From Bolinopsis microptera (lineage: Eukaryota; Ctenophora; Tentaculata; Lobata; Bolinopsidae), in contig NC_087084.1 in assembly GCF_026151205.1 (NCBI RefSeq), positions 2,327,345 through 2,391,344 on the forward strand: 64,000 nucleotides of DNA. The letters run 5' to 3'. The position numbers and the translations under genes were made by a program. The notes beneath the pieces were generated by a model. The model searched no databases, was not told the origin of the DNA, and worked only from the letters and a program-made list of their open reading frames with translations. Of the stretch, positions 7,401 to 63,600 are shown piece by piece (positions within the stretch are counted from its first letter, which is position 1; every line of letters begins with the position of its first letter).

Positions 7401-10400
7401 TGGATTTTCTTAGTGGATTTTCTTAGTGGATTTTCAAAAGTGGCCATAATTAGGGTGTCCATAATTAGCCAAAATTAGCCAAAATATACAAAAAATATAC
7501 AAAAAATGTTTTCAGGATTGCTGAAACGTATGATGGACTGGACAACACGCCTGCCACCCCACGTGCAACCACTCCAAACAGCCGTTCCAGCACTCCTAAC
7601 AACAAAGTAACAACACCTAACAACAAAATAACAACACCTAACACCAACCCAACAACACCTAAAAACCAAGATAAGAGTGAGCACGAAGCAAGAAGCTCCG
7701 TATTGGCTGATTTCTCTGAGAGTGCAGGTCAGTGCGTGGATTGAACTTGTTAGATAAGGAATTGTAAAATTGAATAAGGGTGTTGAATTTCTTGGCTAGA
7801 ATTTCTGAATAATATTACAGTTGAACAGCATTTTTTGAAATTATAAACCACGAAACATGAATCACTTTGAAGATATTAGTTGTTTTAAATCATACGGTCT
7901 TCTCTTTTCTATCTCATCCCATATTTTTAAAAGTTCGAATATTTATACACAATATAGATCATAATATCATTCCTATCTAAAAATTACCTTAAAATCGACA
8001 AGAGTATTTTATTTTGCTTTTATTTTGATTTTACAGGATCTCCAGATAAGACTAAAAGAGATACAGTTCTAATAGATCTACTTTTACAGGATCTCCAGAT
8101 AAGACTAAAAGAGATACAGTACTAATAGATCTACTTTTACAGGATCTCCAGATAAGACTAAGAGAGATACAGTACTAATAGATCTACTTTTACAGGATCT
8201 CCAGATAAGACTAAAAGAGATACAGTACTAATAGATCTACTTTTACAGGATCTCCAGATAAGACTAAAAGAGATACAGTACTAATAGATCTACTTTTACA
8301 GGATCTCCAGATAAGACTAAAAGAGATACAGTACTAATAGATCTACTTGTAAAAGGATCTCCAGATAAGACTAAAAGAGATACAGTACTAATAGATCTAC
8401 TTTTACAGGATCTCCAGATAAGACTAAAAGAGATACAGTACTAATAGATCTACTTTTACAGGATCTCCAGATAAGACTAAAAGAGATACAGTACTAATAG
8501 ATCTACTTTTACAGGATCTCCAGATAAGACTAAAAGAGATACAGTACTAATAGACCTACTTTTACAGGATCTCCAGATAAGACTAAGAGAGATAAGGTAC
8601 TAATAGATCTACTTTTACAGGATCTCCAGATAAGACTAAAAGAGATACAGTACTAATAGATCTACTTTTACAGGATCTCCAGATAAGACTAAAAGAGATA
8701 CAGTACTAATAGATCTACTTTTACAGGATCTCCAGATAAGACTAAGAGAGATACAGTACTAATAGATCTACTTTTACAGGTTCTCCAGGTAAGACTAAAA
8801 GAGATACAGTACTAATAGATCTACTTTTACAGGATCTCCAGATAAGACTAAAAGAGATACAGTACTAATAGATCTACTTTTACAGGATCTCCAGATAAGA
8901 CTAAAAGAGATACAGTACTAATAGATCTACGCCCCACTACACCTGAACCTACACTAAGACGATCTTCCAGGGTAAAGAAGTTTAACGAGTTATCTGTTTT
9001 TAGCCAGTTATTTTTATTAGCCAGTCTTGAGCTTGTCTTTCTAGACTGTTTACGCGAAAAAAGTTGTTACGTTTATCATATTTTTGTCTGAATCGCGTAA
9101 AAAGTTTACGCGATTATTGAGACGAAAAATATGATAAATGTTATGAAATAATGAAAAATTATGCACATCGGTCTTGCATGGTAAATCAGTCAGTACGGAA
9201 AGTTAATAAGTAAAGATCCTATGTTGACCAGTTCTTTCTGAAACACAAGTTCATGTGCATGCTATCTGAATACAATATATGTACACATTTCATCCACTAC
9301 ACAAGCATTACTTCTACAATATGATGGTGTGTTGAGAGCAGCTTGTCAAGTACACTACAGGCATTATTGTCAATCTCCGAGCTTGTACAAATGAAAGTCC
9401 AGGTTCTAAGACGTTGATTTATTTATAGTAACAATTATTGGTCGTGACGGATAATGTTATTTTCAGAGGATTGTTCCGCCGTATTTGACGAAAAAGTTAC
9501 AAAGAGCCCCTTCAAGTGACAGGTAAATTAGCTGTCAAGGGAGAAAGTTGTGATATGGAATTTAAAGGAGCCTACTTAGTACTTATTGGCTGAATTTTCG
9601 ATCGAAAGAAACGTTTAAAATGACAATTATAGAATTATATATTGTATATGTTTCACAACAGTTTTTGGATGGTGGTGACCTTTGGTTGTTTTACATATTT
9701 ATGTATAATCTATAATAATAATATTGCAATTTATTTCTTATTTTAATTTCAGTGATGACGAGACCGAAGACATTGCTTGGGAAAGTATGAGAAGAAACAT
9801 GAAGAGTACTTCATTTTTTCCTTCTTCTAAATCTTGTGGCACCGATGAAAAGATAGACTCTCCCTCGACTAAACCTACAAGTGTGTCAACTGGTGTTTCA
9901 ACTCAAAGTTCTGGTGTTTCAACCCAAAGTACCGGAGTTTCAACTCAAAACACCGGAGTTTCAACTCAAAACACCGGAGTATCAACTCAAAGTACCGGAG
10001 TTTCAACCCAAAGTTTTGGTACTTCAACTCAAAATAGGATTTCCCTAAACAGAAACTCCGGAAACATCTCCACAACTGTCAACTCCAATTTTATTATCCA
10101 GGAAATGAACGGCTCAACAAGGGTTCTTAAATCATCAACAGAACTTAACACTACAACAGTTCAAACGAACGGATCTGCAACTGGGCGAGCTACTTTCTCA
10201 GATGATCAAAGTAATAAAGAAGACCTCCCATCCAATCTGAAAAGAACTGCTAGAACGAGATCCAAAGAAGGAAAGAGACGTTTAAAAAGAACATCAGACG
10301 AAACAAATGATCCAGAGAAGGCTTCAAACAAGAACAACACCGCTCACATCATAAACAAGAAGTGTGTCGCTTGGGCAGATGTAGTTGACAATAATCAAGG

Positions 10401-13400
10401 TAACGAAAACGAAATCGTCAAACAAAAGGATAATGCTCAAAACAAAACTCAAAAACAGATCGAGGATGAAATAATCGTAAAGAAGAAAAAAGAAGAAGGA
10501 GCGATCTTGAAATCACAGCGGTTGGAACAAATGAGAGTAAGAGAAAAACGGGCTGAGTACCGTAAGTAACTTATATATGTATAATACGTTTTTGTTAAGT
10601 TTGTTACACTATTAGATCATTCATGGCAATCATCCTACTATTGATTATTGAGTTATAAAAATTACCTGAGCTCCGGGAATTATCAAGCGGAGCCCGAAGA
10701 GCCGAAGGCATTATTATATTATAATATTTTCCGGTTCTCCGATTGGAAGGGGTGTAATCCGATACGTGCGCATGATACAATATAGTGTCTAATATATAGA
10801 ACGCCAGTGTTATTTGTTTTACAACTTGCCGCCAGCCAGTCTGAGGTCTATGCTGATAATACCTTGGCTTCCCTTGCGGGATATATCGGCAAATTATCAG
10901 CTCTCAGTGTCCGAGACTTTTAGTGGATATATATACATATCACCGGAGACTCGCGGGCGGAACAAAATATTGCACGCGCACGCGCGTGCAATATTTCATA
11001 TGTCCCCGAGGGCGCTAGCCCGAGGAGGACATATTTTCGTATAGCACGGAGGGCCCATTGGGCCCGAGTGCTATACGATTTTTCCGCCCGCGGGTCGAGG
11101 TGATGTGGATTATATCCACCAGCGGGCGTATTACAGTTAATATATAATTTTATAAATAAACAATGGAGCTTGTATAAAAGTCAACTATAGAAAAGGTCGC
11201 CACTAATTGTTGTAACCATGGTAACACGTCACGTGTTCAATGTAAGCCAATCATAAAGGGCTGTGTCGTATATAGGGGCTGGAGATGCACTGCATTCCTG
11301 GGCCGTGGGAATAATGAATGTAATGTCAGTGACGATGAATATCAATAATATAGGGGGATTATAGTGCTGATGTGTATCATTATGTAGTGTGTTATAATAA
11401 CTTTGATATATATCAAAGTATCATGTCATCTGATCACGAGCTGCATGAGCAGCCCTACCGGACACAAAAATAAAATGTATATAATATAGTCAGTGTAATA
11501 AGGAATTTCGAATTCACATGGATACAATACAGAAACTGAAAATATTTTAGAGAACTCCGGGCGATATTGCTACTGGTCAAATTAAATGTCACTTGTTAGC
11601 GGGCTATATCATGAGCGGGCTGTAGAGATATCGGGCCCTTTGACAGCGGGCTGGTGAGAGCCCGCTATGCGAAAAAGCGCACGCTGGTGGATATAATTCC
11701 CGGAAGGTATTATACCTTTAATAATAGCTTACACGAATGATATTCACCAGGAATAGTTAAAGACATCATTATTATGCCTCCACAATTGTTGTGCTGTATA
11801 GTTTGAATCCACATTTGCATTGTTCTGATTGGTAAAATTTAGTTTTCTTTACATAAAGAAACGGTCCGATCATAACCTGAAAAAAAATATTTGAAAACCT
11901 GATTCCTTCAGGGACGAGACTGGAAGAACAGAACCGAGACCGGTCATCCACCCAGCTTATCCTTGACATAGAGGAGAGTTACAGTGAAAGATTACACGAT
12001 GTGTCAGAAGACATGTTGGATAGCTGCACTGACCAACTACTGGTACTACAACTTATGATAGATAACCAAGGTGCGCGGGGCTAAAGTTTTGTTAATAAGT
12101 TACCTATTTTAAGTTTCTTAGTTTCTGTCATGTATCATATTATTAAGATATTACATTTTTATGATGTTGCGTTATGTTCTGATGATATAAATCAAGAGGC
12201 TTGCATATAATGAACATATTGACACGGGTGCAGAGTTGAGTCTGTACGGAACCTAGTAGTTTCAGATCCTTGTTTAACTTGCCGTACAGCAAGGTCATCC
12301 ACTACTTTAGCCCGGCGAGGCACATAACTCCCTCTACAACTCCATGACAAATGTTTCATATATACTAGCCGAGTTCACAAGAATATATCCTTGTGTTTGA
12401 GAAGAGCTCGTTAGAACTGCTTCCTTTCCCTTCAGTATCCCACAGTCTCTCGAGTTTCGTAACTGCCAGAGAACTCTCTTAAACAATTACTAGACTCGGT
12501 GATTATAAATCAAGAGGCTTGCATATAATGAACATATTGACACGGGTGCAGAGTTGAGTCTGTACGGAACCTAGTAGTTTCAGATCCTTGTTTAACTTGC
12601 CGTACAGCAAGGTCATCCACTACTTTAGCCCGGCGAGGCACATAACTCCCTCTACAACTCCATGACAAATGTTTCATATATACTAGCCGAGTTCACAAGA
12701 ATATATCCTTGTGTTTGAGAAGAGCTCGTTAGAACTGCTTCCTTTCCCTTCAGTATCCCACAGTCTCTCGAGTTTCGTAACTGCCAGAGAACTCTCTTAA
12801 ACAATTACTAGACTCGGTGATTATAAATCAAGAGGCTTGCATATAATGAACATATTGACACGGGTGCAGAGTTGAGTCTGTACGGAACCTAGTAGTTTCA
12901 GATCCTTGTTTAACTTGCCGTACAGCAAGGTCATCCACTACTTTAGCCCGGCGAGGCACATAACTCCCTCTACAACTCCATGACAAATGTTTCATATATA
13001 CTAGCCGAGTTCACAAGAATATATCCTTGTGTTTGAGAAGAGCTCGTTAGAACTGCTTCCTTTCCCTTCAGTATGACAGAATATTGCGATAAAAGATCAT
13101 GCTCTATAATAAAATACTGTACTTAACTTTGGTACCACTCTTAATTCTTATAACACTATTTCTCTGCCCCCACTATTTCCATACCTCATTTCATACTTAT
13201 ATTTGTTATTAAATTATCATTTAAATTATCATTTAAATTATTATTTAAATTATTATTTAAATTATTATAATTAAATTATGTATAATTCAAATTATCATTT
13301 AAATTGTTATAAAATAATTATTTTATTATTCCAGGAGAGTTATCCTCGCTACCACCAGAATACTACTCATACTGTTACAATGACATACCAACAGTTAGCT

Positions 13401-16400
13401 ACTACGGTACCGAGGGAGTTCTAACTTGGATGCTTACCTCTCAGAATAAGCCATTCCAAGTGATCGCTGCTAGACTTACTTTTATCAAGTTAGAAGTTAT
13501 TTGTATTAAGTTATATTAAGTTATATTAAGTTTTTTATATTAGCACATTTTATAGTAATCTGTAGTTTGGAGAGTGCTGTTTTGTCAACTCTGATAGGTT
13601 ATTAAATATGGGTACTAGTTTTTAAGACAGGTGCCAACTTGAATATACTGTAACCTGGTTAGCAGCTTTACTGAAAAGAAAAAAGCGATCTCTTAAAATT
13701 CCCTCTTGAACAAAAAACACACTCTGTATAAAATGTCCATGTCTCAACGATCCACCAAATAGTTTATTTCAGCAATTGTTTGACGTACGTGTTCCTGGTG
13801 AAGAGTTGCTCGAACCCTATCTCCTCTACTTTCTATAAAGATGTCGGACTGTACCTCTCCTCTCACTCCATAGCTCAGTCAGATCCCCAACTCTTCAAGT
13901 GAGAATACCACCAACTTTTAATAAAAGAAATGTGTTCTCCATTCTGATTTCATATCTGTTTTCTGATTTCATATTTTGTAAACCTCTTAAATCGGTTGGC
14001 CGTTCGCGTCAGCCAGTTTCTTACCAGTAGTAACTTACCAGTAGTTACCAGTAGTTACTTACCAGTAGTTACCAGTAGTTACTTACCAAAGTAATCATTC
14101 CCAGATCCACTCTACTGAACCCACGTGACTACCCGCTCTGTGAACCACTAAACAAGTTGTTCCTGGTATCTAAATACAACAAGAACTTGTGCACGTGGTT
14201 TACTGCTCAGCCTGCTTGGTATACGTGTAACTTGGCTCACGATAAGGTCAGTTCTCATTTCTATACGTGTAACTTGGCTCACGATAAGGTCAGTTCTCAT
14301 TTATATACGTGTAACTTGGCTCACGATAAGGTCAGTTCTCATTTCTATACGTGTAACTTGGCTCACGATAAGGTCAGTTCTCATTTATATACGTGTAATT
14401 TGGCTCACGATAATGTCAGTTCTCATTTATATACGTGTAATTTGGCTCACGATAAGGTCAGTTCTCATTTCTATACCTGTAACTTGGCTCACGATAATGT
14501 CAGTTCTCATTTATATACGTGTAATTTGGCTCACGATAAGGTCAGTTCTCATTTATATACGTGTAATTTGGCTCACGATAATGTCAGTTCTCATTTATAT
14601 ACGTGTAATTTGGCTCACGATAAGGTCAGTTCTCATTTCTATACCTGTAACTTGGCTCACGATAATGTCAGTTCTCATTTATATACGTGTAATTTGGCTC
14701 ACGATAAGGTCAGTTCTCATTTATATACGTGTAATTTGGCTCACGATAAGGTCAGTTCTCATTTATATACGTGTAATTTCTATACGTGTAACTTGGCTCA
14801 CGATAAGGTCAGTTCTCATTTATATACCTGTAACTTGGCTCACGATAAGGTCAGTTCTCATTTATATACCTGTAACTTGGCTCACGATAAGGTCAGTTCT
14901 CATTTATATACCTGTAACTTGGCTCACGATAAGGTCAGTTCTCATTTATATACCTGTAACTTGGCTCACGATAAGGTCAGTTCTCATTTATATACCTGTA
15001 ACTTGGCTCACGATAAGGTCAGTTCTCATTTATATACCTGTAACTTGGCTCACGATAAGGTCAGTTCTCATTTATATACCTGTAACTTGGCTCACGATAA
15101 GGTCAGTTCTCATTTATATACGTGCAACTTGGCTCACGATAATGTCAGTTCTCATTTATATACGTGTAACTTGGCTCACGATAAGGTCAGTTCTCATTTA
15201 TATACGTGTAACTTGGCTCACGATAATGTCAGTTCTCATTTATATACCTGTAACTTGGCTCACGATAATGTCAGTTCTCATTTATATACGTGCAACTTGG
15301 CTCACGATAAGGTCAGTTCTCATTTATATACCTGTAACTTGGCTCACGATAAGGTCAGTTCTCATTTCTATACGTGTAACTTGGCTCACGATAAGGTCAG
15401 TTCTCATTTATATACGTGCAACTTGGCTCACGATAAGGTCAGTTCTCATTTCTATATGTGTAACTTGGCTCACGATAAGGTCAGTTCTCATTTATATACG
15501 AGTGCAATTTTTAAGTTAGAATAACAAAAGTAACGAGTCAGTTTTGAAAATGGGTTTTACTTATTGGTTTTAAAAATGTACCGATAAGAGAGGAGAGTGT
15601 ATGATGTTAAGTCTGAGTTCTACAGATTTGCAGAGCGCCCTGCTGTCACATGTCTGTCACATGTCTATACAATACATGTCACATGTCTATACAATACATG
15701 TCACGTGTTGTCACGTGTCTATACAATACATGTCACATGTGGTCACATGTCTATACAATACATGTCACATGTGGTCACGTGTCTATACAATACATGTCAC
15801 ATGTCTATACAATACATGTCACATGTGGTCACGTGTATATACAATACATGTCACATGTCTATACAATACATGTCACGTGTTGTCACGTGTCTATACAATA
15901 CATGTCACATGTGGTCACATGTCTATACAATACATGTCACATGTGGTCACATGTCTATACAATACATGTCACATGTGGTCACGTATCTATACAATACATG
16001 TCACATGTGGTCACGTATCTATACAATACATGTCACATGTCTATACAATACATGTCACATGTGGTCACGTGTATATACAATACATGTCACATGTCTATAC
16101 AATACATGTCACGTGTTGTCACGTGTCTATACAATACATGTCACATGTGGTCACATGTCTATACAATACATGTCACATGTGGTCACATGTCTATACAATA
16201 CATGTCACATGTGGTCACGTATCTATACAATACATGTCACATGTTGTCACATTTCTATGATACAATCACTCTTCCAGGTTAACGAAGTCCACGGTACAAA
16301 GACAAAACAGAGGATGACACTGTCAGAGATACAGAACAACGTGTCCCCTGTTTCCAGTACTGAGTTCTGTGTTTCCACATTGGCTGGGGGCATTCTTACT

Positions 16401-19400
16401 TCTCAGGTATATAATATCAACATTCAACATAGACTGACAAAATTTTCTTATCGTCATTACATTTTGTTCGAAGTGGAACCTACCAAAAATCTACATACGG
16501 TTTCCTGAAAAATCTGTACGATTTCCTGAACGTTTACAAACGTTAAAATCTTATTGTTAATTATGTATATAATAATTGTTTTATGTATAATTAATAATTA
16601 AAAATCACTTACTCTGAGTAAATTATAGAACGTTCCGAGTGCAACTGATTTTCAGGCGGGTTTATTCTACGTGTTGTCGAGTATACGTGATACCCAGCTG
16701 GAGATATCAGCACTTAGACTGGTACAAACTGTATATACTGGAGTATACTGGAGTATACTAGAGTATACTAGAGTATACTGTCCGAGTATACTGGAGTATA
16801 CTGTATATACTGTATATACTGAAGTGCAACTGATTTTCAGGCGGGTTTATTCTACGTGTTGTCGAGTATACGTGATACACAGCTGGAGATATCAGCACTT
16901 AGACTGGTACAAACTGTATATACTGGAGTATACTGGAGTATACTGGAGTATACTAGAGTATACTAGAGTATACTGGAGTATACTGGAGTATACTGTATAT
17001 ACTGTATATACTGAAGTGCAACTGATTTTCAGGCGGGTTTATTCTACGTGTTGTCGAGTATACGTGATACACAGCTGGAGATATCAGCACTTAGACTGGT
17101 ACAAACTGACACATCTCAACAAACTCTTTGTCTGGTACTGTCAGGGTACTCGGCTATTGGCAAATGGTCAGGTAGGAATACATTAGTTGCTAGTTACTAA
17201 TTAGTTATTAGTTGCTAATTAGTATAGACATGAGTTACCTCCATGCCAGGGCATTCAACCTGGGATGAAATGAATGAAATGAGGTATCTATATCCCGCTT
17301 ATATGATTAACCAACAGCTCAAGGAAGGTGGTTAACCATGTCAGAGCGGCTGACTGTGAGTGATGTGAGCAAATGTGCAAAAATGAACAAGAGTATAACT
17401 CAATATAAGGCTAAGATTCATCTTTAGATTAAGATATTGCTTTCATACATTCGGTGAAATATGCACGTTCGTGTTATAATTTTCTAGCATTGTATATCGT
17501 CACCTACAAATAGAAAGGGCTTATGTCGAAAAATGTCGTTTTGAGATAATCAATAAAAACCTATTTACGGAAATGGAAAAAATGACTGGCCTACACTCTG
17601 AAAATGTTCCTGAAGCTTTTCAATTAATTGGGGTAATTGATTTAATTTTGACATAGGCCCTCATAGGCCCTTTAAAAAAATATTCAATACATAGGCCACT
17701 CTTAATTAATTGAAACATCTTACATGTGAGAATCGGTACAGGGCGTATGTGTACATAGGTCCTTTTAACTTTTCAAATTATTTCTTTAAACATCACATTC
17801 CAACAATTTGTTAGGGCATATGTTGACTTAGGCCCTTTCTACTTTTCAAAAACATCACACCTCAACAATTTGTTAGGGCATATGTTGACTTGGGCCCTTT
17901 CTACTTTTCAAAAACATCATCAAAAACATCACATTCCAACAATTTGTTAGGGCATATGTCGACATGGGCCCTTTTTATTTTATCAATATCAGTAGCAGTT
18001 CAGTTTATTGAAAAAGGACTATGTTAATATAGGCCCTTTTAAAAAATTAGAGATATTCAATTTTCACCCAATTGACTTTATATTTGGGGATATGGTAGGT
18101 ATGGTTCCACAGATTATCGTGCTGGTATAGCTTTTTAAAAGGGCCTATGTCGACATAAGCCCTTTCTATATTTTGTAGGTGACGATATATCTATATTATA
18201 TTTTAAACTTGACGAAATTTCCCCGGCAACGGGGACATAGAAGAAAAAACACCGAAAATCGACCTCAAAATGACCCTCTGGTGATGCCAAACCCAGCTCG
18301 CAAATGGAGTTGAAACCTCGCCATTTTTAGCAGGGTTGTAGAAAAAGGATAGGAATAGGCTATAGCATTCTTAGAATTTTGATTTAGGCTTTAGATTTTT
18401 TATAATTAACGTCGGAAGTGAGGTTAAATAATCGTTAGAATAATGGCGTTATTTAAGCAAAGGTTTACTGCGCTGTTGCGTAGCAACGATAAAAATGCAC
18501 GTGTGCGAGCAACCACAGATTAACAACGCGCGTTGTTATGCTGTATGATACGTCATAATTTCAAAACTAGCTCACATTTACGCTTACGCTATGACTTCTT
18601 ATAACTTTGTTTGTGATTGCAATATTTTGATGCAGTAAAAAGTATCGATACTTTTTTTTCGATACTAAATTCGCTAGAGCTACACACAATGCTGACATGA
18701 CGCCGCGCACACACAATCAACAAAAATATTGTTGTTTTCTAATTACGCAAATAACTTTGCGCAGTTAAACATTTTAATTGCCTGGCAATAATTCAATTGA
18801 CTGTCATTCTCGATTGAAATATCAGAATTTCACAACTAGCTCACATTTACCCTCATGACGCTATATACCTATATATATTTATAACTTTGGTTGTGATTGA
18901 AATTTTTTGATGCGGTAAAAAGTATCGTTTTGGGGCTATATGATGAAGAGAAATTAAAAAATAACTGATGCTTAAAATTTCCTCGAACAAAGCTTTCGAC
19001 TAGCGGCGGGTTTCTAGTAGTATATATTATATAGATATAATCATAGTATATATATATATAATTTCGTTCTGTGTAATTATAAAATCAAAATAAAGAACAT
19101 TGGGTTGATTGCAGATGTTGATTCCCTCAATATTACGCCCCACTATTTCAGATAAACTAGGAGCTGTGGACAGGGAACTGGCTCTGCGAACCAACTCCAA
19201 CAGTGTGCGAGCTGTACTGACTCAGCTGGATATAGACCAGTTCTCACTCACTAACACCAGAACATCTGATAAAACCAGGTAATTGTGTGACGTCACGTGA
19301 TGAGCAGTGTGACGTAACGTGATGAGCAGTGTGACGTCACGTGATGAGCAGTGTGACGTCACGTGATGAGCAGTGTGACGTCACGTGATGAGCAGTGTGA

Positions 19401-22400
19401 CATCACGTGATGTGCAGTGTGACGTCACGTGATGAGCAGTGTGACGTCACGTGATGAGCAGTGTGATGTCACGTGATAAGGTGTGGCGTAACGTGAGAAA
19501 TTGTGTGACGTCACGTGATGAGCAGTGTGACGTCACGCGAGGAGTTATATACACATTATACAGGTGTTTTATTGTGCGGTGTACAATCTGTCCAGCTCAT
19601 TATTTAGATATTATAACAATTAATCTAACAGCAACCTCCCCAGACAGGAACTAGCCCGCTACTTTGGGTACAGATTCCAGGACGCAGCTCCCCCCAGAAC
19701 TTCTGAACCTACCTACCCTCTCGTCTTCGAACGGTCCTACGATTACTTCTTCCTTCTGGTATCACCCCTCATTTCACCATCTCTGTTGGGGGAGATATTA
19801 TCTGTTCTTCAGGATAGTGGTGTTTCTTTGCTCGGTTAGTTTTACTCGGGAATCGTTTCGTTTGTGTTCTTACACCCTAATACGGCCACAGTTATTTAGC
19901 CACAGTGTAGTTCTTCTTGTAAATAATGCATTATCCGTACAAATTTGATCAAGAACTTGGCTTCTGAAATAAGCAACATTTTTTTGCGTTTCATCATAGC
20001 CCATAAATTTAAAATGCAAACTGTTAAACTATTTTCTAGGCGTTAGAAGAAGTAGACTAAACTACAGGAAATGTGTTGGACTGGGACTATCTGAATGTCA
20101 GACGAAAGTGTTCTCTAAGTTTAACGGAACTCCCCTCACCTCACCCTCACTATCTAGTTCTAATGGTTCTACTCCTGGAGAAGAAAGACAGTTCTTCCCT
20201 CAGGTGGGACTTTTCAATCATGTCGTCACTTGTTTCATGATTTATGATATCACATGTTTTGTGATGTTTTATCTTAAATGCGAATAGTGCTTTGGAAATC
20301 ATGATTGATAATTCCATTCAGCATGATTTTGCTTTGATGTTTATGAATTTTCTCTGCAGTTTATATGCACAGTGCACGGTGCATTTCGCCACCTTTGAAA
20401 TGCTAAGCACCGTCACTAGGGTAACATATCTTAACCACGTGACATGACGTCACACTACGTGACTCGCCCACGTGACTCGCCCACGTGACGTGTATTCACA
20501 TAACCATTACTCTCAGAACTTTACAACGGACGCGTCCCCCTCACAACCCACCTTGGCTTCCACCGTCCTGTTCCTGTCCAAACGTAACGGTATCTACCAC
20601 TCCCGTCACCTGGTAAAGGAACTGAAAACACGGGTAGTTGATGTTAACATGAGTCATACCTTGCAGACTTCCGATACTTTTAATAGCAGGGAACAGCTGT
20701 CAGGTTTGTGATATTATCTGAGATATAGTTATTAGTCGCGTGATTCATGACGTCACCTGTTTCATGACGTTATGTGTTTCATGACGTCACCTATTTTCGT
20801 GACGCAAAATCGCTTCAAGACTCATTTTTTTCACATATTTGTACGATAATCATGAGATAATACCTTCAGATCCCTATCTGTATTTTGAGATAGTGCCGCA
20901 TTCTGAGAACAACCTGTGGAATGTTGGTGGTCAGTTTGGTCTTATGCCGGAGAGGAAAACATTCGACTTCTTCATGTCTCACAAACAGGTGATTGAGGGT
21001 ACAAAATCTGTATTTTACATGGTAAAATTATTTCTTATTATATCTGTAGTGACTAAATTTATGGTAGACTAAATTTACCGTAAATATTTTTTGCCGCGAA
21101 TATGCCGCGATTTTCGAAGTTTTTGTTGCTATTTTCTTTTGTCCTTGTGTGGCTCTGTCTGATTTCCCGAACAAATTCAAAATTTTCACGAAAATTGTTA
21201 CCAAAAAAAGTAGCTCATTATACGTATTACGTAATTGTGAAATCAATTATATTTTATTCATTACGTGCCTCAGAACTGTGTCGGTACTTTGGGGTGGTAT
21301 TTTTAGTTTAAATCACTCTCTTCGCTAGCCTCACCACTCTTAAATCAGGGTTTTTCTCAGTCTACTCAACAAAATATTGTTATCAGATCACATAGGATAG
21401 TCGTATATAATCTGACTTTTCTCTCGCTAATAATCCTTTCCCGACCCCGTGACTCTGCCAGCTACTATCACGTGACTATGATATAGTAACTGTTTTCTCC
21501 TCGTCATGAGGAGGTAAGGAGTTATTATGTATTTTGCGCACTACTTTTTTACATCAATTTTGTCTCTATAACTTTTTATGTCCTATGCATACACTCCTTG
21601 ATAGTTATCTTGATCTAGTATCTTTGTTTCACACAATAGAGCATAAGTTTTGTGGTTTATCCACTGGGCTTAGATTTTGTGTCTGAGCTACCAAATTTTC
21701 TTATTATTATTTATTATAATAAATATATTTGAAGTAAACAAATCTGGTCGCAAACAAACAAATTATGCTGGATGAATTATTACTAGCAGGAAGACTCAAG
21801 AGACTGAAATAATTAAATTTTGGGCTCTAAAATCCCTATTCCTTGGCCTATTTTTTATTTTTTCATGCTGATTTGAAAAGCATAAAAGCATTCGACCCAG
21901 TCAAAAAAGTTTCAGTTGTATTTCTTTTACGGTTTTTTTACGGAAAGTCACATTAAAGTTGATGCCGTGGTGTCAGTAAAATGGCACGGATCCATCCATA
22001 TAGAATATATATATATATATAGTCTCGCTTTATATATAGTAAGATGAACCAAATCTGCGATAGAGTAGCATACCCATAAAGTGGTTTGTACGGAGTAATC
22101 CTCTCCCGACCCCGTGACTCTGCCAGCTACTATCACGTGACTATGGAATAGGAACTTTTTTCTCCTCGTCATGATGATGGATTATCAACCAAATCTGCGA
22201 TAGAGTAGCACAGTGGCGTAAGGTTGCCTGTTGGCCCCCAATTTTAGTCACTTTTTTCGAATTTCCGAGACCATTTTCCATTCCATTTATTTGATTTTTC
22301 CATTATTTAGCTAGTTTTGTTGTTTCCCATTTCGCACATAAATTCATACTTTAAAAGTTTAAAGTCAGGCATGTTGATTAAATGATTTATTACATTTAAT

Positions 22401-25400
22401 GTCTCCCTGTTTGAATTCTAACGACGAGCCAAGATTACATCCATCAGTTACATTACATAACATCAAATTTCTTAGTTCATGCAGTAGGATCCTGTGTACA
22501 GTTAGCAATATTTAACGGTTTATTATAACATAATATAGCAGCAGTTTTAAAAGTTCAATTCTAGAATTAAACTAGATGCAGATAGTACTGCCTGATGGGA
22601 AAAGGAAGTAAGAGAATGTTAAAACATAAAAGCAGTGGATTACACGTTTAATAGTCAAAGTAGCTCAGCAGTAGGAACGCGAACGGTGATGTCACTATAT
22701 TAATTATAAACAATGTAAGCTCAATAATATTCATGTCAAAATTCTGACTAAATTTATGGTAGACTACATTTGTCGTTTTTAAGGTATATTATACCGTAAA
22801 TATGTTTTTTCCGCGAATATGCCGCGATTTTCGAAATTTTGGTTGCAATTTTAACAATTTTAGGTCATCGCAGCGCCGCGATTTTTGGCCTAAATAATCA
22901 CGATTTTCTTTTGTCCTTGTGTGGCTCTATCTGATTTCCCGAACAAATTCAAAATTTTCACGAAAATTGTTACCAAAAAAAGTAGCTCATTATACGTTTT
23001 ACGTAGTTGTGAAATCAATTATATTTTATTCATTACGTGCCTCAGAACTGTGTCGGTACTTTGGGGTGGTATTTTTAGTTTAAATCACTCTCTTCGCTAG
23101 CCTCACCACTCTTAAATCAGGGTTTTTCTCAGTCTACTCAACAAAATATTGTTATCAGATCACATAGGATAGTCGTATATAATCTGACTTTTCTCTCGCT
23201 AATAATCCTCTCCCGACCCCGTGACTCTGCCAGCTACTATCACGTGACTATGATATAGTAACTGTTTTCTCCTCGTCATGAGGAGGTTAGGAGTTATTAT
23301 GTATTTTGCGCACTACTTTTTTACATCAATTTTGTCTCTATAACTTTTTATGTCCTATGCATACACTCCTTGATAGTTATCTTGATCTAGTATCTTTGTT
23401 TCACACAATAGAGCATAAGTTTTGTGGTTTATCCACTGGGCTTAGATTTTGTGTCTAAGCTACCAAATTTTCTTATTATTATTTATTATAATAAATATAT
23501 TTGAAGTAAACAAATCTGGTCGCAAACAAAAAAATTATGCTGGATGAATTATTACTAGCAGGAAGCCGTATAACCCTAAATGGTGTCAAGACTCAAGAGA
23601 CTGAAATAATTATGACCTATTTAAATCGCGTTTTTGACACCACTTGGGGGTCCAAATTTTGGGCTCTAAAATCCCTATTCCTTGGCCAATTTTTTATTTT
23701 TTCATGCTGATTTGAAAAGCATAAAAGCATTCGACCCAATCAAAAAAGTTTCAGTTGTATATCTTTTACGGTTTTTTTGCGGAAAGTCACATTAAAGTTG
23801 ATGCCGTGGTGTCAGTAAAATGGCACGGATCCATCCATATAGAATATATATATATATATAGTCTCGCTTTATATATAGTAAGATGAACCAAATCTGCGAT
23901 AGAGTAGCATAGCCATAAAATGGTTTGTACGGAGTAATCCTCTCCCGACCCCGTGACTCTGCCAGCTACTATCACGTGACTATTGAATAGTAACTTTTTT
24001 CTCCTCGTCATGATGATGGATTATCAACCAAATCTGCGATAGAGTAGCACAGTGGCGTAAGGTTGCCTGTTGGCCCCCAATTTTAGTCACTTTTTTCGAA
24101 TTTCCGAGACCATTTTCCATTCCATTTATTTGATTTTTCCATTATTTAGCTAGTTTTGTTGTTTCCCATTTCGCACATAAATTCATACTTTAAAAGTTTA
24201 AAGTCAGGCATGTTGATTAAATGATTTATTACATTTAATGTCTCCCTGTTTGAATTCTAACGACGAGCCAACATTACATCCATCAGTTACATTACATAAC
24301 ATCAAATTTCTTAGTTCATGCAGTAGGATCCTGTGTACAGTTAGCAATATTTAACGGTTTATTATAACATAATATAGCAGCAGTTTTAAAAGTTCAATTC
24401 TAGAATTAAACTAGATGCAGATAGTACTGCCTGATGGGAAAAGGAAGTAAGAGAATGTTAAAACATAAAAGCAGTGGATTACACGTTTAATAGTCAAAGT
24501 AGCTCAGCAGTAGGAACGGTGATGTCACTATATTAATTATAAACAATGTAAGCTCAATAATATTCATGTCAAAATTCTGACTAAATTTATGGTAGACTAC
24601 ATTTGTCGTTTTTAAGGTATATTATACCGTAAATATGTTTTTTCCGCGAATATGCCGCGATTTTCGAAATTTTGGTTGCAATTTTAACAATTTTAGCTCA
24701 TCGCAGCGCCGCGATTTTTGGCCTAAATAATCACGATTTTCTTTTGTCCTTGTGTAGCTCTGTCTGATTTCCCGAACAAATTCAAAATTTTCACGAAAAT
24801 TGTTACCAAAAAAAGTAGCTCATTAATCATTATACGTTTTACGTAATTGTGAACATTTTGTATCAATATATTTTATTCATTACGTGCCTCAGAACTGTGT
24901 CCGTACTTGTGGTATAATTAGCCAGCATTTTGGGAATCGGTTGCGTGTTTATTTTTTCATAGCCAATTTGACAATTTTTAACGCCGTCTTAGGAATCCTT
25001 AGTTTTAATACACGCTAAATAGTACAATTTTACATTGTCTCCGTTAACAGAGTTGTCTTTGTTGATATTTATTTTAATGAAAGCGGGTAATTTACCCGCA
25101 TACATTGAAAATAAATTTCACCTGCTGGGTAAATAATATTCTGTTTTAACGAAACATTCTTGTAATGATCAGGTTACATTCTGTCGAACATGCAAACGAA
25201 CAACAAAACGCTATATGCTATCAGAGATAATGAGGAGCGGTCACTTCTTATATTGTGGAACTTTATAGTTATTCTGTCGTCACTTATAGGGGACAGTATC
25301 ATTTTGATAGCGACTATTAAGTACAAAGCCATCAAACTCCATAAAGTGATAATAACAGTAATGCAACACATGGCTGTTTGTGACTTATTACAAACAGTAT

Positions 25401-40467: not shown

Positions 40468-40593
40468 GGTAGTTTATATGGCAGGACATGACAGGTACGG
40501 GTGCATGTTTATTGATATTCTCCCTGTTGATTTTTTATATTCACGATGTCAATCTTTCGCAGCTCGGCGCGGCGTGGCCCAGTGGTGAATTTC

Positions 40594-48647: not shown

Positions 48648-51600
48648 TGCACGCTGAACAATCTGCATGCACTGATCTGAGAAGCGCGGCGCGCGCTTAT
48701 CTCGCACGCCGCGCGCGATATATTTGTACGCGCGCGCACGTTGTGCTGACAAAGCACTTAATAGAATATTAAGCGCGGATTCCTGACGTCCAGAAAGAAT
48801 GCATTCTTTTAAAGGAAAACCTGGATCATACAAACATCTAAACTGTTCAAATAACCAAACAATGTGGTATACATTACATACATTAGCATGTGTTTATATT
48901 CCCCACTACCCATAGGCCACAAAATATTCAACAGCCATTTGACACCAAGCGCCAGCACCTTCAACTGTCCCCAGCAGCTAATGTGGCTCAAATATTTCTT
49001 ATTACAGGGTTCAATAGATAATTAATTTAGATCAGTGCTTCTAGCTGCGTTTACCAATACAATGGACATGTAATGGACATGTAATGACCAAAGTCCAAAA
49101 CAGAATGTTCAACTTTTAAAGGGGGGGGGGGGGGGGGGGGGGGGCCAATGGGTATTTTTTTAGTTTTTTGTGAAACTTGATTTCGAGATAGTTGAGAGAT
49201 AGTTGACCAACAAACTAGGACCAGTGACCGAACTTTTGAGGGGGTCATATCCCGGACCCCAACCGCCAAACGGTACGCGCAGGGCAGCCACGCCCATATT
49301 CGGTCCAAATTAGGCCCAATTTACCTAGCCAAAAACCCTGAACATGCCCAAAACCCAGGTTTATGGTGCTCTACTTGTAGCTAGTGGTCTCCTGAACTTG
49401 TATATGAAATTTCATCAAGATTGGACAACAAAATGACTGAGTTATGAGCCAAAAACCATATGCCCATATTTGGTCATACGCACCAAATTTGGTAGATTTC
49501 GTCCCATAAATTGGTCAAATATCAATATTTTTGAATGAGACTTACTTTTTATGAAAAGTAAGCCTAAACTACATATTCTCTGTAAGTTATAGCTTTATAT
49601 CTGTTTAAATGTGGATACTAAGGCGAAAAAACCACAAAAAATGAACTAAATTGCCCGTATCTTGGTTCGCAAAGTTTCACAACCCCCAATACAAACTCGA
49701 TTAATCAAAGGATCACGTACCATCTTGTTCCTGTCCAGGTTTTACATTTTTTAAAGCATGGATACATTTTCAGGCTATTTCCCCCACTGTTAACTTAACA
49801 CTACAGGATGACTCAACGAGAATTTTGAGATTATAAAAATGATAAATCTTTTTATGAAGGAGCAAATTTTTAAAGATGAACAATTGCTAACATACCTTGA
49901 TATTGCTAAAAAACATACCTAAAATTGCTAACATACCTTGATATTGCTAAAAAACATACCTAAAATTGCTAACATACCTTGATAAGCCACAGTCCACTGG
50001 GGGTTGTTGGGTTCCTGTAAGCGTACACTGACCACCCCACAAATATCATAACAATAAGGAGGATCAGAGTTACAATGAATCCTATCAGGGCTCTAACTGC
50101 TGTGTTCGAACCTGCGGTCACGTGGTTTTCAGAAAATATAGAAAATTTGAGAAAAAACTTTAAAATGTAACTTACTACCTTACTCGGGAATATTATGACT
50201 GGGATAAAGTGGTGGATTTTGGAAAATTCCGCCATATTTTTCCCGGTCATTAATTTTCCCCGTCATAAATTAACCCGCTAAAATATTCCCGAGTAAGGTA
50301 AATACATATATTGTATATATTAACTTACCGCTACACTTGTAGTAGATATTGAGCGTCTTATCAGCTCCAGGGCACGGGTCCGAACCAAAGAATGTTTGAG
50401 TAGCTCTGTAAATATTTCCATTGTTACTCTTGCAACTCTTGTGTGTGGTAATGAACAAGTTTCACCTGCTCAGCAAAGATGTATTTATATATTATTTTGA
50501 GCTTTGACCTTGAATTCTTTACATTTTTCGCTCAGGGAGGTGAACAACATGACTTATTTGCCAATTTTTTAGCTGTATCACGAGTAGGAAGATTGCATGT
50601 TAACTTGTCGTCTTGGCAAGCTTATTTGATGCATATCTATTATGTAATTATTCACATGATAGTGATCATATGCTCCATTATCTATATATAGTGGTCATGT
50701 GATATGGTCACGTGGTGTCATGTGATATGGTCACGTGGTGTATCTACAGATTTGGCTCTGCTCTTAGTCTGACCACCACCACACAAATTATTATCATATC
50801 AATACATTGTAAGATAATATGATTAAGCCCAGTTGAAGATAGTGGATTAAGTAATTAAACAATTAAGCAATTAAGGTAATCAAGTTAATTAAGGGATTAC
50901 TCACTGGACAAAACACTTGGTTTTGTGGTTGCACATCTCTGAGACCTTTTCTTTAACCATGTTGTTATCATACGCACACTTCTTGTTTCCGTTTGGAGAT
51001 TTGGAGCTTTCACAGAAGGACCTGGTGGGTTTGAGAGACTGATCAGTTAATTAGTCATAATCACTTAATTTCAATCTTACATAATAATATTAAGTTCAGT
51101 CGGTTATAATCCAGTGATTGTTCTAGTAAAATTCGTTATTCGCCAGCTCTTGTTGGTTATTAGAGTTTCCCCAGAATTCAATCAAGCCACACACACATCC
51201 GCATTCCGCACCAAGATACATTATATATTATTTAGATAACAAACCACAGATTAACATTCAATGATTAGTTCAAACTAGTCCCACTGTGTAAAATCCGGAT
51301 TGGAGTATTATTTATGAGTCGCATTGTTGTAATGTATTCTGTGTAAAATTATCTTTATCCCGGTTACTGCGACAAGTAAAAATGCTCTTATTAGGGAAAG
51401 GAGTTTACTCGACGTTTCAATGTAACTACATCGTATTCATGATCTCAAATTATTTGTTATATAGTAGTGTTGAAAGTATTAAAACATTTATTATTAAAGA
51501 TAATTTTACACAGAATACAGTCCCACCGTGTTGGGTTGGGTTGGTATGAATGGCGATAACCAATACAGGGTCTTCCACTTCCAACAGACACTGGATGTTC

Positions 51601-57600: not shown

Positions 57601-60600
57601 AGACACACCTACAAAAGGTTACACTAATTACAACACTACAACTCTATTACATTTATTGAGAATTATGTAATGTAGCGTGATGGAAATATTTCCCAGTGTA
57701 AACTCGGTCACAAGCCCTAGTTTGTTGGTCAATTGCTATCTCCAAATCAAATTTCACAACAAAAATCAGGGTGAACCCTACCCCCTTAATTAGTTACACT
57801 GGGAAATGGCATGGTTAATTGGTTAGGACGTGTTTAGTGTATACAGGAATGTAGAGAATTTTCATATCAGGAAAGTGCGGAAAGCTAAGCGTTTAGATTC
57901 AAAGCAGATATTTAGCAAAGCGCAATTTCTTTGTTTCTTTTTTTCTAAAGAACAAACTACTAGCAAGTTACCACTGTTAAGCAGGTAACTTTTATTGGCA
58001 CGATCAACGCTAAACTTTGTTTTTATTGGATTTGGAGCTTTCATTAAAAGTAAGCATGATAAAAACTTACAATAGTAAGTGGAGTCTAGTTTAGATTCCT
58101 CAGTAACGTTAATAAGATGCCAAGATTCCTCAGTACCAATCTCAGGCTCTGTAACGACTTTTTTAGGCTCTGTAACGACTTTTTTAGGCTTTGTAACGAC
58201 TTTTTTAGTGACATATTTAGGTTCCTCAGTGCCAATCTTAGGCTCAGTGGTGACTTTTTCAGGTTCATGAACAAATTTTTCAGGCTTAGTGACAAATCGA
58301 TGAGGCTCTGTGATGACGTTCTCAGGCTCTGTAACGACTTTTTTAGGGTCGGTGATGACTCTTTCAGGCTCTGTAACTATTTTATTATGCTCTGAAACGA
58401 AATGATGCATGTCAGTTACTGCATTTTTGTGCTTGGAATGCCGATGATTATCACCAGAAACTGTGTTTTGAGCTTCAGAATCTTGGTTAGTTGAAGGAAC
58501 ATGGTTAGTGGCGGTTTCTTTAGGTTCTGTTTTTGGTTTAGTCGTAGGATCCGCCACCCAATCTGGAAAAAGGAAACTAGCAAATAGTTATCAATCTTAC
58601 ACCATTATTTGAAGTTTGAACACATATTACCGCAAGAAAAAGGTTATGGGTCCTGTAAAATGGCAAAGAAAAGAGTAGTGCGGAGTGCCCTGGACTAGCG
58701 TCAAATAATCGGATTATCCTAAGCAGGAGCAAAGTTTTCAGCGCCTCTTGGCAGCTGCAGCTGAATGCAAAAATCATATTTTCGTATCTAGTTATTCTAG
58801 CTACGCTTTCTTATTTAGATAGTTAACTTAACTATTAAAAAAGTTAAGTTTGTACTGCATCTTTGCATCTTACTAGTTGAACCAAAACTCGCCACAAACT
58901 GATTTCTCCATAGAAGTATTAAAACTAACCGAAGTGGTTACCATATTTAATCTAATCGAAGAAATTGTCAGATTTAGGGTTTGCTAGGCTCCATGATAAT
59001 GTTCAAAATAATATGTTGATCACCCTTCGACAAGGACCCGGACGATAGGCTTGTCATTCTCGGTATTTCTGGAGCGAGCATCGCAAGCTTTGATCCCAAA
59101 AATAACATTTGACTTGTATTACTTGTGTAATGGTAACCTTTTACATATTTGCAAGATGCAAAACATTCGTGATCCGAATCATCGTCAAACAATTCAATCC
59201 AGTCACCGATATACTTATAGCATCTCACCTATTATAAAGTTATAAATAACTGCACCGAAATAGATACATTGCGTAATATTATAATAAATTTGACTATTAT
59301 AATAATATAATGAATAAAAATAGCGCGAATGAAGCTATATTACAGTTCAATGCAGTTAGATGAAAACGGCAAAATGTTTGCTTTTTGCCTACAAGTATCA
59401 TATTATTAATTCTTATTGTCATTATAATACATTTGTAACCTATTAAATACATTTCATGTGACCCTAAATTATCCACATGTCCCCACATTATGTGGTTTAG
59501 TTTCATCTGACTGAGCAGCTGGTAATAACGGTTTAGTCTGAGGACGCACAGTATAATAAATGTTACTGTAAGGCTAGAGTTTCCTTTTGTAAGAAGTGGT
59601 AGTGGTATTACCGGTGTGTTCAAGATAAAAATTCGACCTCACGGTGCAGTGGTATGACATAAACCATATTTGAATCGTCCGTTCATTGAATTAAATATCA
59701 AAATCAGTTAATAATGTAGGGTATTAAACTTCTTAATACAGTTCTAACTCCACCCCTTTAATATCAAGACGATTAGTGATTATTTATCAACCCTGCGTTT
59801 TGTGGAGAGGGTACTAAATTGAAGTCATTTTCACCGACACCATGGCAAAATCAAATTCAAATAAATAACGAATGGCACGCTGCGGAAATATGTTTTGTAT
59901 TACGAATCATAAACTGTGTCGGGCAACGAGAATTATTATATTATTTTGGGATTTTTAATTTTTGTCGCCCGCAAGATTGCTTGACAGTACCTTAATAGAT
60001 AGGGTACTTACTGGTACAGTGGGGTGCCATATGTTTTCGTTATTCCTAACGGCGCGAGTTTGCGTGCAGGTCACGTGATATTGTTAGCAGTGAGTGTAAT
60101 TACGAGTCTCTGGATAATGTACGTACGTTGTGGTGAGCTGGTGAGTTTTGGTGAGTTGGTGAGAGAGTTGAGCGTAACTTCGGATCCCCCTGTAATGTGC
60201 TCAAACAATACATTCGTGGATATAGGTTACTAGGCAGTAACTAGGTAGTAACTAGGTAATAACTAGGTAGTAACTAGGTAGTAACTAGGTAGTAACTAGG
60301 TAGTAACTAGGTAGTAACTAGGTAGTAACTAGGTAGTAACTAGGTAGTAACTAGGTATTTATAACTTATTGGTGAGAGCTTTGAGCCCAGTGAAGGATTT
60401 TCTAGGTTCAGTAACAACTTCCTTGGGTTTTGTGATGACTTTTTAGGCTCTGTAACGACTTTTTACTTTTTTAGGCTTTGTAACAAAGTTAGTGGTCACA
60501 AATTTACCAGGCTCTGGGATGACTTTTTTCAAAACCCAAAATAGTTCAAATAAATAACGAATAGCACGCTGCGGAAATATGTATTGTATAACGAACAATA

Positions 60601-63600
60601 AACTGTGTTTAGCAACGTAGCTTATAGTGAGAATTATTATATTATTTTATAATTTATACATTAAGTTTAAAAGTGTGTTTAATATAAATATTAGGCTCAT
60701 CTGTAATACAATATTATAATGTCCATTATAGGTGTCCTGTAAATTATGAAACATCGAAAACAAAATACAGCTAATCAACGAGAAATCACATAGATGTGCT
60801 CGCGAAACATACGCGGTCTTAATTATAGTCAACACTTGCGTGAAGTAATCAGAATGTTAGTAACCTTGCATTCATCGATAAACTAGCATAAACTTTATTT
60901 ATCATGCATCTTTTCAGCTGCTTGAAAATCTCAGAAATTAATGCATATTTTATACAGCTCATGTTAAATAGCTTAAAGGAAGCAAGCTAAAGAAAGCATT
61001 GTAAATTTAAAAATTGTATTAATTAATCAATTAAAACGCACCTTTATCAGTTTTAGGAGGTAAAGCAGCCTCGCTCTCATTGGGACACTCCGTAGCCTGT
61101 GTAACGGAGTTGTCAGGCTCGTTACACTTTCCTGTTATCCAGTTCTGTTTCCAGCGAGATGTTCCGTCACTGCACCTGCACACGTGTTGTTACAGAGACC
61201 AGAGATACACAAACAATGAACGGGCCGGGTTAAAACAGATAAGAGACCAGAGAAACACAAACAAATAGGGCTGGGTTAAAACAGATAAGAGACCAGAGAA
61301 ACACAAACAAATAGGGCCGGGTTAAAACAGATAAGATACCAGAGAAACACAAACAAATAGGGTCGGGTTAAAACAGATAAGAGACCAGAGATACACAAAC
61401 GATGAACAAATAGGGTCGGGTTAAAACAGATAAGAGACCAGAGAAACACAAACAAATAGGGCCGGGTTAAAACAGATAAGAGACCAGAGAAACACAAACA
61501 AATAGGGCCGGGTTAAAACAGATAAGAGACCAGAGAAACACAAACAAATAGGGCCGGGTTAAAACAGATAAGAGAGCAGAGAAACACAAACAATGAACAA
61601 ATAGGGCCGGGTTAAAACAGATAAGAGAGCAGAGATACACAAACAATGAACAAATAGGGTCGGGTTAAAACAGATAAGAGACTGCAGGCGAGTGTGTTTA
61701 CCGTATATAATATGTTATAGAGTCAATAGCTGTTATTGTAACATAAATAAATAAATAATAAATTCTAACACTTATTGAACGCTTTGGCATAAATAATAAA
61801 ATATAAGAAATATAATAAAATGTAATAAAATAATAACTCTGTATAAAATTGCAGTTATTAAACTAGCTAGACTAAATAACGGTGATGCCTTATCAAATTA
61901 TGGGTTTCTAGACACCCAGTATATTGATAACCAAATATTTATAACTTGACTTGAGGTGTTAGTGACATTTAAACATATTTAGGGGATGGCTGAGCAATTG
62001 TCCAAATAAAGCTATGATTGAACCACGAATTTGTCGCTAGTAGCAGTATACGAAGGAAGGTGGATTCCGGCTAGGATCGTTGGTGCTAACTGCTAAGTTA
62101 TATATCATAACTTCAGCTAAAACTTCTGATAAAAAGCCTGTGACTAATACAGGTAGTCTCTCGACACGAAACTTTTTTTAAAAGTATACTGTAAACATTA
62201 ATATTTGAACATCATCTGGGAATGTTAAAAAAACAACTACATAATTAAAATAAACATTAAATTAGTAATGTTTTAGTTTAGAGTGAGACTTACTGTTGCA
62301 AGTAATTAGTGACGTTTTGCAGTTAACAATTAAAGTTGGACTTACTGTTGCACGTAATAAGTAATGTTTTGCAGTAAACAATTAAAGTTGGACTTACTGT
62401 TGCAAGTAATAAGTAATGTTTTGCAGTTAACAATTAAAGTTGGACTTACTGTTGCACGTAATAAGTAATGTTTTGCAGTTAACAATTAAAGTTGGACTTA
62501 CTGTTGCAAGTAATAAGTAATGTTTTGCAGTAAACAATTAAAGTTGGACTTATTGTTGCAAGTAATTAGTAATGTTTTGAAGTTAACAATTAAAGTTAAA
62601 CTTATTGTTGCAAGTAATAAGTAATGTTTTGCAGTAAACAATTAAAGTTGGACTTATTGTTGCAAGTAATTAGTAATGTTTTGAAGTTAACAATTAAAGT
62701 TAAACTTATTGTTGCAAGTAATAAGTAATGTTTTGCAGTGAACAATTAAAGTTGGACTTACTGTTGCACGTAATAAGTAATGTTTTGCAGTTAACAATTA
62801 AAGTTGGACTTACTGTTGCACGTAATTAGTAATGTTTTGCAGTTAACAATTAAAGTTGGACTTACTGTTGCAAGTAATTAGTAATGTTTTGCAGTAAACA
62901 ATTAAAGTTGGACTTACTGTTGCACGTAATTAGTAATGTTTTGAAGTTAACAATTAAAGTTAAACTTATTGTTGCAAGTAATAAGTAATGTTTTGCAGTA
63001 AACAATTAAAGTTGGACTTACTGTTGCACGTAATAAGTAATGTTTTGCAGTTAACAATTAAAGTTGGACTTACTGTTGCACGTAATAAGTAATGTTTTGC
63101 AGTAAACAATTAAAGTTGGACTTACTGTTGCACGTAATAAGTAATGTTTTGCAGTTAACAATTAAAGTTGGACTTACTGTTGCACGTAATAAGTAATGTT
63201 TTGCAGTTAACAATTAAAGTTGGACTTATTGTTGCACGTAATAAGTAATGTTTTGCAGTAAACAATTAAAGTTGGACTTACTGTTGCACGTAATAAGTAA
63301 TGTTTTGCAGTTAACAATTAAAGTTGGACTTACTGTTGCACGTAATTAGTAATGTTTTGCAGTAAACAATTAAAGTTGGACTTACTGTTGCACGTTTGGG
63401 CACCAACTACAGTTAAATGTAGTCTCTAACGTTGCACAAGCTGCACAACTCTGTGCGGTGGCGCAAGCTGAAATTATTATAAATTAATAATTTAAATTTA
63501 ATACTTAATATATATAAAGCAAATCATTTTTTTTTTCAAGCCTCATATTTCTTCGTGTCCAAAGGCAACACATTATTATAAATTTTAAAAATTAGAATAT

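Follow-up and report, generated by a model that had tools for sequence, protein, structure and literature searches.

Within 64 kb of contig NC_087084.1 of the ctenophore Bolinopsis microptera (C13:2327345-2391344; this whole stretch is called the window, and positions are counted from its first letter), minisatellite arrays contain splice junctions or lie beside them. These arrays occur in two unrelated predicted genes on opposite strands, gene A and gene B. A sequence-only reading of the window had claimed as much, and Tandem Repeats Finder (TRF) and reading frame analysis agree with it apart from two details. We believe that these are probably ordinary minisatellites, several of which arose from duplications straddling an exon-intron border and are tolerated as the exon-proximal splice site is used. 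The arrays are a new case of a kind of structure already described in lancelets, the 'mirages'.

Arrays at exon-intron borders

Arrays were detected with TRF at periods of at least 10 bp, and the window inventory covers arrays of at least 100 bp. Genes were predicted from sequence, not transcripts, with a small self-trained gene finder and hand checks. Gene A is long and lies on the plus strand (approximately 3.5-46.5 kb), and gene B lies on the minus strand (approximately 48.5-63.5 kb). Seven of the 16 arrays in the inventory contain a splice junction, five end within 20 bp of one, three lie elsewhere and one is wholly exonic. Both 5' and 3' exon-intron borders are represented among the seven, which comprise donor arrays starting at 14220, 49882 and 62287 and acceptor arrays starting at 8029, 16638, 26767 and 42586.

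The acceptor array at 8029-8930 (plus strand; 53 bp x 17.0 copies, 97% match) had been noticed at 8037 as a 53-bp acceptor unit, and the acceptor does fall within the unit. Each unit consists of the last 8 nucleotides of the intron (TTTTACAG) and the first 45 nucleotides of the exon. There are 17 acceptors, 15 of which score at least 10.4, together with 16 copies of TACTAAT and 16 of TTTTACAG. TACTAAT is a good branch-point sequence and it is located in the exonic part of the unit; thus, most copies are near-complete 3' splice sites. The array at 16638-17108 (plus strand; 185 bp x 2.5), previously described as three copies of about 190 bp at 16640, holds acceptors at 16656, 16841 and 17033. 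The array at 26767-26873 (plus strand; 52 bp x 2.1) has acceptor 26871 inside it. TRF and sequence comparison identified a segmental copy of this array at 42586-42692 (plus strand), which also contains an acceptor. These last two arrays, and the array at 13209-13323 described below, are additional to the sequence-only reading.

The donor array at 14220-15500 (plus strand; 42 bp, approximately 30.5 copies), first reported at 14219, has a unit made of 27 nucleotides of exon end and 15 nucleotides of intron start. Its 30 donors comprise 23 copies of AAGGTCAGT and seven of AATGTCAGT. The first copy provides the donor of the predicted exon 14105-14246 (plus strand); in a second model, made on collapsed sequence, the donor falls in the single array copy retained. 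The unit of the donor array at 62287-63395 (minus strand; 52 bp x 21.3; 62285 in the earlier account) contains 10 nucleotides of exon end and 42 nucleotides of intron, and its 22 donor positions read GT in 16 cases and AT in six on the minus strand. The array at 49882-49984 (minus strand; 41 bp x 2.5) carries five donor-like GGTATGTT and matches a donor array of about 44 bp claimed at 49893. The splice signal is therefore kept in many, but not all, units (16/22 GT at 62287 and 16/17 TTTTACAG at 8029). The units at 8029, 14220 and 62287 look like the products of a duplication across the border that was then amplified.

Five further arrays end close to a junction. Two of these had been described as abutting junctions at 19283 and 61193, and they do lie close by: the array at 19285-19544 (plus strand; 22 bp x 11.9) begins 6 bp past donor 19278, and the array at 61194-61682 (minus strand; 46/53-bp units) lies 18 bp upstream of acceptor 61175. 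Two other claims did not stand in the form given. The tract at 27991 had been read as an 18-bp acceptor unit, but the pyrimidine-rich array at 27999-28577 (plus strand; unit 18 (9) bp) contains 34 copies of the branch-point-like CTAAC and no AG, and ends 5 bp before an acceptor. The array said to abut a junction at 15643 has no junction there in the gene models. This array (15644-16258, plus strand; 22/32/54-bp units) occupies much of the intron remaining after the 42-bp array, and it is its opposite edge that comes to 19 bp short of acceptor 16278. The fifth, at 13209-13323, ends 11 bp before an acceptor.

The association with junctions is not general. The arrays at 12186-13074, 17788-17919 and 60229-60357 lie at no junction, and the array at 9895-10014 is wholly exonic, as is a shorter one at 7595-7670.

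The arrays at 9895-10014, 7595-7670 and 58144-58374 lie in predicted coding sequence, and their 21-bp units correspond to seven codons. Their unit length is consistent with selection on frame within exons.

Splice site copies predicted to be usable

In four arrays (8029, 16638, 26767 and 62287) the site predicted to be usable is the one that adjoins the intact exon (the last copy in acceptor arrays and the first in the donor array), because this copy fits the frame and phase or completes a PSI domain. At 8029, a stop-free exon whose phase matches the neighbouring exons results only from the last acceptor (8886) of 17. At 16638, the first acceptor gives a stop-free exon in a different phase (516 versus 139 nucleotides), the second introduces two stops and the last fits. 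At 26767, only the last acceptor (26871) of the two fits, and the upstream copy brings four stops. At 62287, the first donor copy joins exon 63386-63467 (minus strand; first half of a PSI domain by Pfam, donor position from frame analysis) to exon 61042-61175, and the PSI domain is completed. Against the Pfam PSI profile the first exon scores 20.7 bits by itself, and the joined exons, which cover profile positions 2-51 of 52, score 24.1 bits (cut-off 23.1).

These fits bear on a rival explanation, in which certain called junctions would not be true splice sites and the splice consensus would partly have been read into the repeats. No junction is supported at 15643, and the exon that uses the last acceptor of the 8029 array (8886-8971, plus strand; assigned by frame and phase) has a weak coding score and was left out by two of the gene-model runs. 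However, the PSI domain and the phase fits back four of the seven junction-containing arrays without relying on the consensus. We therefore regard false junctions as extremely unlikely to account for the coincidence of arrays with junctions.

The 42-bp array at 14220 behaves differently in frame analysis. Each of its 30 donors keeps phase 0 without introducing a stop, so that any donor could give a readable product. This fits an explanation in which repeated donors are selected, either because serial U1 sites aid exon recognition or suppress premature polyadenylation, or because the 42-bp array gives protein-length variants. Other arrays do not share this property: the other copies at 8029, 16638 and 26767 bring stops or a different phase, and at 62287 the unit length of 52 bp is no multiple of three. 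Selection on donors also fits poorly with the weak or dead copies among them (7/30 at 14220 and 6/22 at 62287).

Most inner copies are alike and few are dead or weak: six of 22 read AT in 62287, seven of 30 read AAT|GT in 14220, and one of 17 acceptors is broken (score 0.6) in 8029. Such a mixture of mostly similar decoy copies and a few dead ones would be as expected from neutral turnover.

Array length has also changed between duplicated copies. The 3' half of gene A is segmentally duplicated (26.3-38.6 versus 42.0-48.6 kb); the first copy is interrupted at 32.1-35.6 kb, and the main pieces are 95-99% identical, with one short piece at 93%. The array at 27999 measures 579 bp and its segmental counterpart (43820-43904, plus strand; TRF and sequence comparison) 85 bp, with flanks 96-97% identical, whereas the array at 26767 and its copy at 42586 are of equal length. 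These comparisons are between segmental copies, not alleles. For gene A, the duplication could mean a choice between two 3' ends or a double tail that is fused.

Array placement compared with chance

Exons and introns are short, and a random interval of one unit therefore often meets a junction. The window test used arrays of at least 90 bp, introns of up to 3 kb and hand-checked models, with one segmental copy dropped (exon 63386-63467 was entered as 63388-63467 in the placement models; counts were unaffected). Five of 13 arrays contain a junction, compared with 3.11 expected (P 0.16), and with introns of up to 1 kb four of 10 do so (4.06 expected). An unselected sample of 260 kb from three other chromosomes was analysed with automatic gene models and masking. 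Here a predicted junction falls inside one of nine arrays of at least 90 bp (1.51 expected) and inside two of 24 arrays of at least 40 bp (3.12 expected). When the window and the unselected sample were pooled under automatic models, five of 19 arrays of at least 90 bp contain a junction (4.15 expected); the automatic model misses the junction at 8029 as well as most of gene B, both of which the hand-checked window models include. Thus, junction containment is near random expectation, both with automatic models and with window introns of up to 3 kb, and this supports the reading that ordinary duplications happened to straddle borders.

Proximity to junctions gives a less even picture. The sequence-only reading held that chance placement of so many arrays on junctions was unlikely. 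This holds in the window for arrays that contain a junction or end within 20 bp of one (10/13 versus 3.96), but not for containment (5/13 versus 3.11) or for proximity in the unselected sample, where four of nine arrays of at least 90 bp contain a junction or end within 20 bp of one (2.10 expected, P 0.13). At the threshold of 40 bp, eight of 24 do (4.81 expected, P 0.087). Set against random placement, the window thus holds more arrays within 20 bp of a junction than expected, and the unselected sample shows no significant surplus. An earlier placement test, which permitted placements within exons and used coarser periods, gave a similar result outside the window: two of seven arrays contain a junction (0.90 expected), and three of seven are within 20 bp (1.33 expected, P 0.12).

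We also conditioned the position of each intronic array on the intron that holds it. At the 90-bp threshold, five of 18 arrays lie in the outer tenth of their intron in all sequence (1.8 expected, P 0.028) and three of 12 outside the window (1.2 expected, P 0.11). For arrays of at least 40 bp in pooled sequence, the count is nine of 57 (5.7 expected, P 0.11). A Kolmogorov-Smirnov (KS) test for arrays of at least 90 bp gave P 0.15 in all sequence and 0.27 outside the window. These tests point to a weak excess of arrays near intron ends.

Splice motifs were then counted across the genome (264.65 Mb, 232 contigs) as three copies separated by gaps of 15-45 or 20-50 bases, with the reversed motif as control. 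Donor triples greatly exceed their reversed controls: 1491 matches versus 12 for AGGTAAGT, 785 versus 11 for CAGGTRAGT and 696 versus 38 for AAGGTRAGT. Controls that differ by one base gave 137 matches for AAGATRAGT (28 reversed), 121 for CAGATRAGT (12 reversed) and 776 for AATGTRAGT (211 reversed). We rejected the AGGTAAGT excess as decisive because it is dominated by one family and because the closer controls are mutually discordant; 51 AGGTAAGT matches, about half of those listed, belong to one 32-bp family at two places.

Loci were counted by eye among the approximately 100 matches listed per motif, a set that is complete only for TTTTCAAG. Among the matches listed, CAGGTRAGT has at least nine loci up to C5:13.8 Mb and CAGATRAGT at least 10 up to C6:14.5 Mb, five of the 10 being one 18-bp family, and CAGGTRAGT loci are no denser than CAGATRAGT loci. 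AATGTRAGT has at least five loci among those listed, up to C4:0.8 Mb, with four on C1. For AAGGTRAGT at least seven loci are listed on C1 alone, and for AAGATRAGT at least six across C1 to C8:11.8 Mb. The counts are suggestive of a donor-array excess for one motif, and an excess is absent for another. The excess over reversed motifs would favour selection on repeated donors. However, the AATGTRAGT control alone gives 776 matches, and CAGATRAGT loci per Mb are about as frequent as CAGGTRAGT loci among the matches listed. Together with the frame analysis above, we consider selection on repeated donors very improbable.

Acceptor triples numbered 367 for TTTTCAGG (93 reversed) and 50 for TTTTCAAG (15 reversed). 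In the sequence read, TTTTCAGG is approximately 10 times commoner outside arrays (29 versus 3). Its loci (at least four over approximately 60 Mb, among the matches listed) are no denser than those of TTTTCAAG (16 genome-wide). Thus, these counts reveal no clear genome-wide excess of acceptor motifs.

In a separate observation, the 18-bp-spaced arrays at C1:16.63, C3:20.38, C6:7.63 and C6:12.49 Mb occur as inverted pairs 4-7 kb apart. Judged from their positions only, these pairs resemble the ends of mobile elements.

Splice scores of array units exceed those of random genomic segments (donor KS P 7e-5, 36 arrays). Against dinucleotide shuffles the donor effect is smaller (P 0.012, 40 arrays; P 0.011 within the window), and in 26 arrays outside the window neither donor (KS P 0.16) nor acceptor (0.24) scores differ significantly from the shuffles. 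As the effect shrinks against dinucleotide shuffles, we did not accept unit-level scores as evidence of a preference for junctions.

Several results weigh against the reading of ordinary, tolerated duplications. In the window with introns of up to 3 kb, 10 of 13 arrays contain a junction or end within 20 bp of one (3.96 expected, P 0.00015), and with introns of up to 1 kb nine of 10 do so (5.09 expected, P 0.006). When all introns are included, six of 14 arrays contain a junction (1.94 expected, P 0.005) and 11 of 14 contain one or end within 20 bp (2.48 expected, P 0.00005). The window was selected for this feature and its junctions were hand-checked beside arrays, and its P values are therefore optimistic. 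In pooled sequence under automatic models, 12 of 19 arrays contain a junction or end within 20 bp of one (5.41 expected, P 0.0014). In the earlier placement test, pooled, seven of 19 arrays held a junction (3.34 expected, P 0.026), and the count within 20 bp was 12 of 19 (4.82 expected, P 0.0003). Additionally, the 42-bp array at 14220 may use any of its donors without a change of frame. Last, AAGGTRAGT arrays are approximately seven times denser than AAGATRAGT arrays among the matches listed (P approximately 0.001, with the lengths of C4-C7 assumed), a value that is optimistic because this is the best of several comparisons.

A rival explanation is that junctions are preferred seeds for repeats and that arrays grow from intron ends. 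Low-complexity tracts of polypyrimidine and branch-point sequence could be the cause, or else a mechanism linked to transcription or splicing, such as R-loops. The excess within 20 bp in window and pooled sequence fits this explanation, and the array at 27999 is itself an iteration of branch-point-like and pyrimidine sequence. Among the arrays of the unselected sample, one of 11 bp x 59 (L032 3817-4468) starts 2 bp past a predicted donor, and two further arrays stop 10 and 11 bp short of predicted acceptors. The L032 array occupies most of its intron, and the gene around it has repeats that look von Willebrand-like by eye. However, the unselected sample alone has no significant excess, and the unit scores of the 26 arrays outside the window are not above dinucleotide shuffles. 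We consider preferential seeding unlikely as the main cause, though arrays may show a modest preference for intron ends.

A model for arrays that span splice junctions

Based on these data, we propose a model for the arrays. In a compact genome, a stretch that happens to straddle an exon-intron border would be duplicated in tandem, and the array would then grow through slippage or unequal exchange. Splicing would pick whichever copy adjoins the intact exon (the last one in an acceptor array, the first one in a donor array), and the other copies would turn into intron. Exon definition, in which an acceptor and a donor pair across a short exon, is the likely cause of this proximal choice. Arrays that span a border could survive because duplicate signals would be harmless when the exon-adjacent copy is spliced.

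The sequence-only reading had offered either a process that amplifies junction sequence or selection that tolerates or favours duplicated splice signals. The unselected sample, where the excess is not significant, does not demonstrate a need for a targeted process. Tolerance fits the frame data and is the simpler part of that interpretation. A bolder extension is that intron ends in this lineage are hot spots of minisatellite birth, that hundreds of genes carry ladders of identical splice sites whose outermost copy is picked through exon definition, and that certain ladders that stay in phase, among them the 42-bp array with its 30 donors, give graded protein lengths. We regard this extension as improbable.

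The closest known structures are the amphioxus mirages, minisatellite-like duplications of exon-intron boundaries in Adh3, the globin genes BflGb6 and BflGb9, TnC and PGBD5 (PMC3087553, PMC3902484). Mirages involve 5' and 3' borders, carry AG or GT in many but not all units and vary in copy number (PMC3087553, PMC3902484), and regular splicing was undisturbed by RT-PCR (PMC3087553). The tandem units found here likewise span 5' or 3' borders. The arrays differ in that they reach up to 30 units and that several occur in two genes within 64 kb. Additionally, splicing was seen in amphioxus, whereas for the present arrays it is predicted from sequence. A limited, partial literature search found no report of mirages outside lancelets.

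Three other systems share features with these arrays. The human genes UBC and VCX3A are tandem-repeat genes with dual-specific splice sites (PMC10809524). Their tandem units also bear splice signals and possibly allow a choice of copy number. There, however, a single AGGT acts at both ends of an intron, as donor and as acceptor, and intron length is an exact number of units, whereas each of the present arrays has mainly one kind of site. The 14220 unit contains AAGGT, and its best acceptor score in a test for dual specificity was 5.3. In intron gain by tandem genomic duplication, splice-competent sequence is likewise reported to be duplicated (PMC4974935, PMC2891723). In the window, existing introns are enlarged, and no new intron is demonstrated. 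Introners are repetitive sequences tied to introns, present as near-identical insertions in many genes. They differ from the 53-bp unit, which is found at its own locus only and is not a dispersed family: in a genome search with this unit, all eight scored matches fall within the 8029 array.

These ladders of near-identical donors or acceptors constitute a natural experiment in splice site choice. With 17 acceptors or 30 donors in series, the competition between the first, the last and the exon-proximal site is put directly to the test. The arrays also illustrate how introns may lengthen and absorb a junction duplication that would be harmful elsewhere. If it is true that arrays prefer junctions genome-wide, they would be a source of new introns and alternative exon ends.

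Genes and other features of the window

In the gene B region, Pfam identified a SUEL lectin domain at approximately 50.3-51.0 kb and the PSI domain at 61.0-63.5 kb. The two regions are taken to be one gene, though no model joins both. For gene A, no Pfam family was found in the 376 residues tested. A Protein Data Bank (PDB) match to nucleoside-diphosphate kinase was rejected as weak (E 0.11), and gene A is left unnamed.

Introns of gene A hold other candidate genes. An N-acetylneuraminate-lyase-like gene (Pfam DHDPS) is nested antisense at 4731-6326 (minus strand), and a 377-amino-acid single-exon frame at 25169-26302 (plus strand) is G-protein-coupled-receptor-like by eye. The frames at 32160-35471 (minus strand) and 357-1706 (plus strand) resemble retroelement reverse transcriptases by eye. 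An intronic block is present in two tandem copies, 21131-23064 and 22903-24912, which are 97-99% identical. The median predicted intron is 284 bp in the window, and 218 and 905 bp in two other samples.

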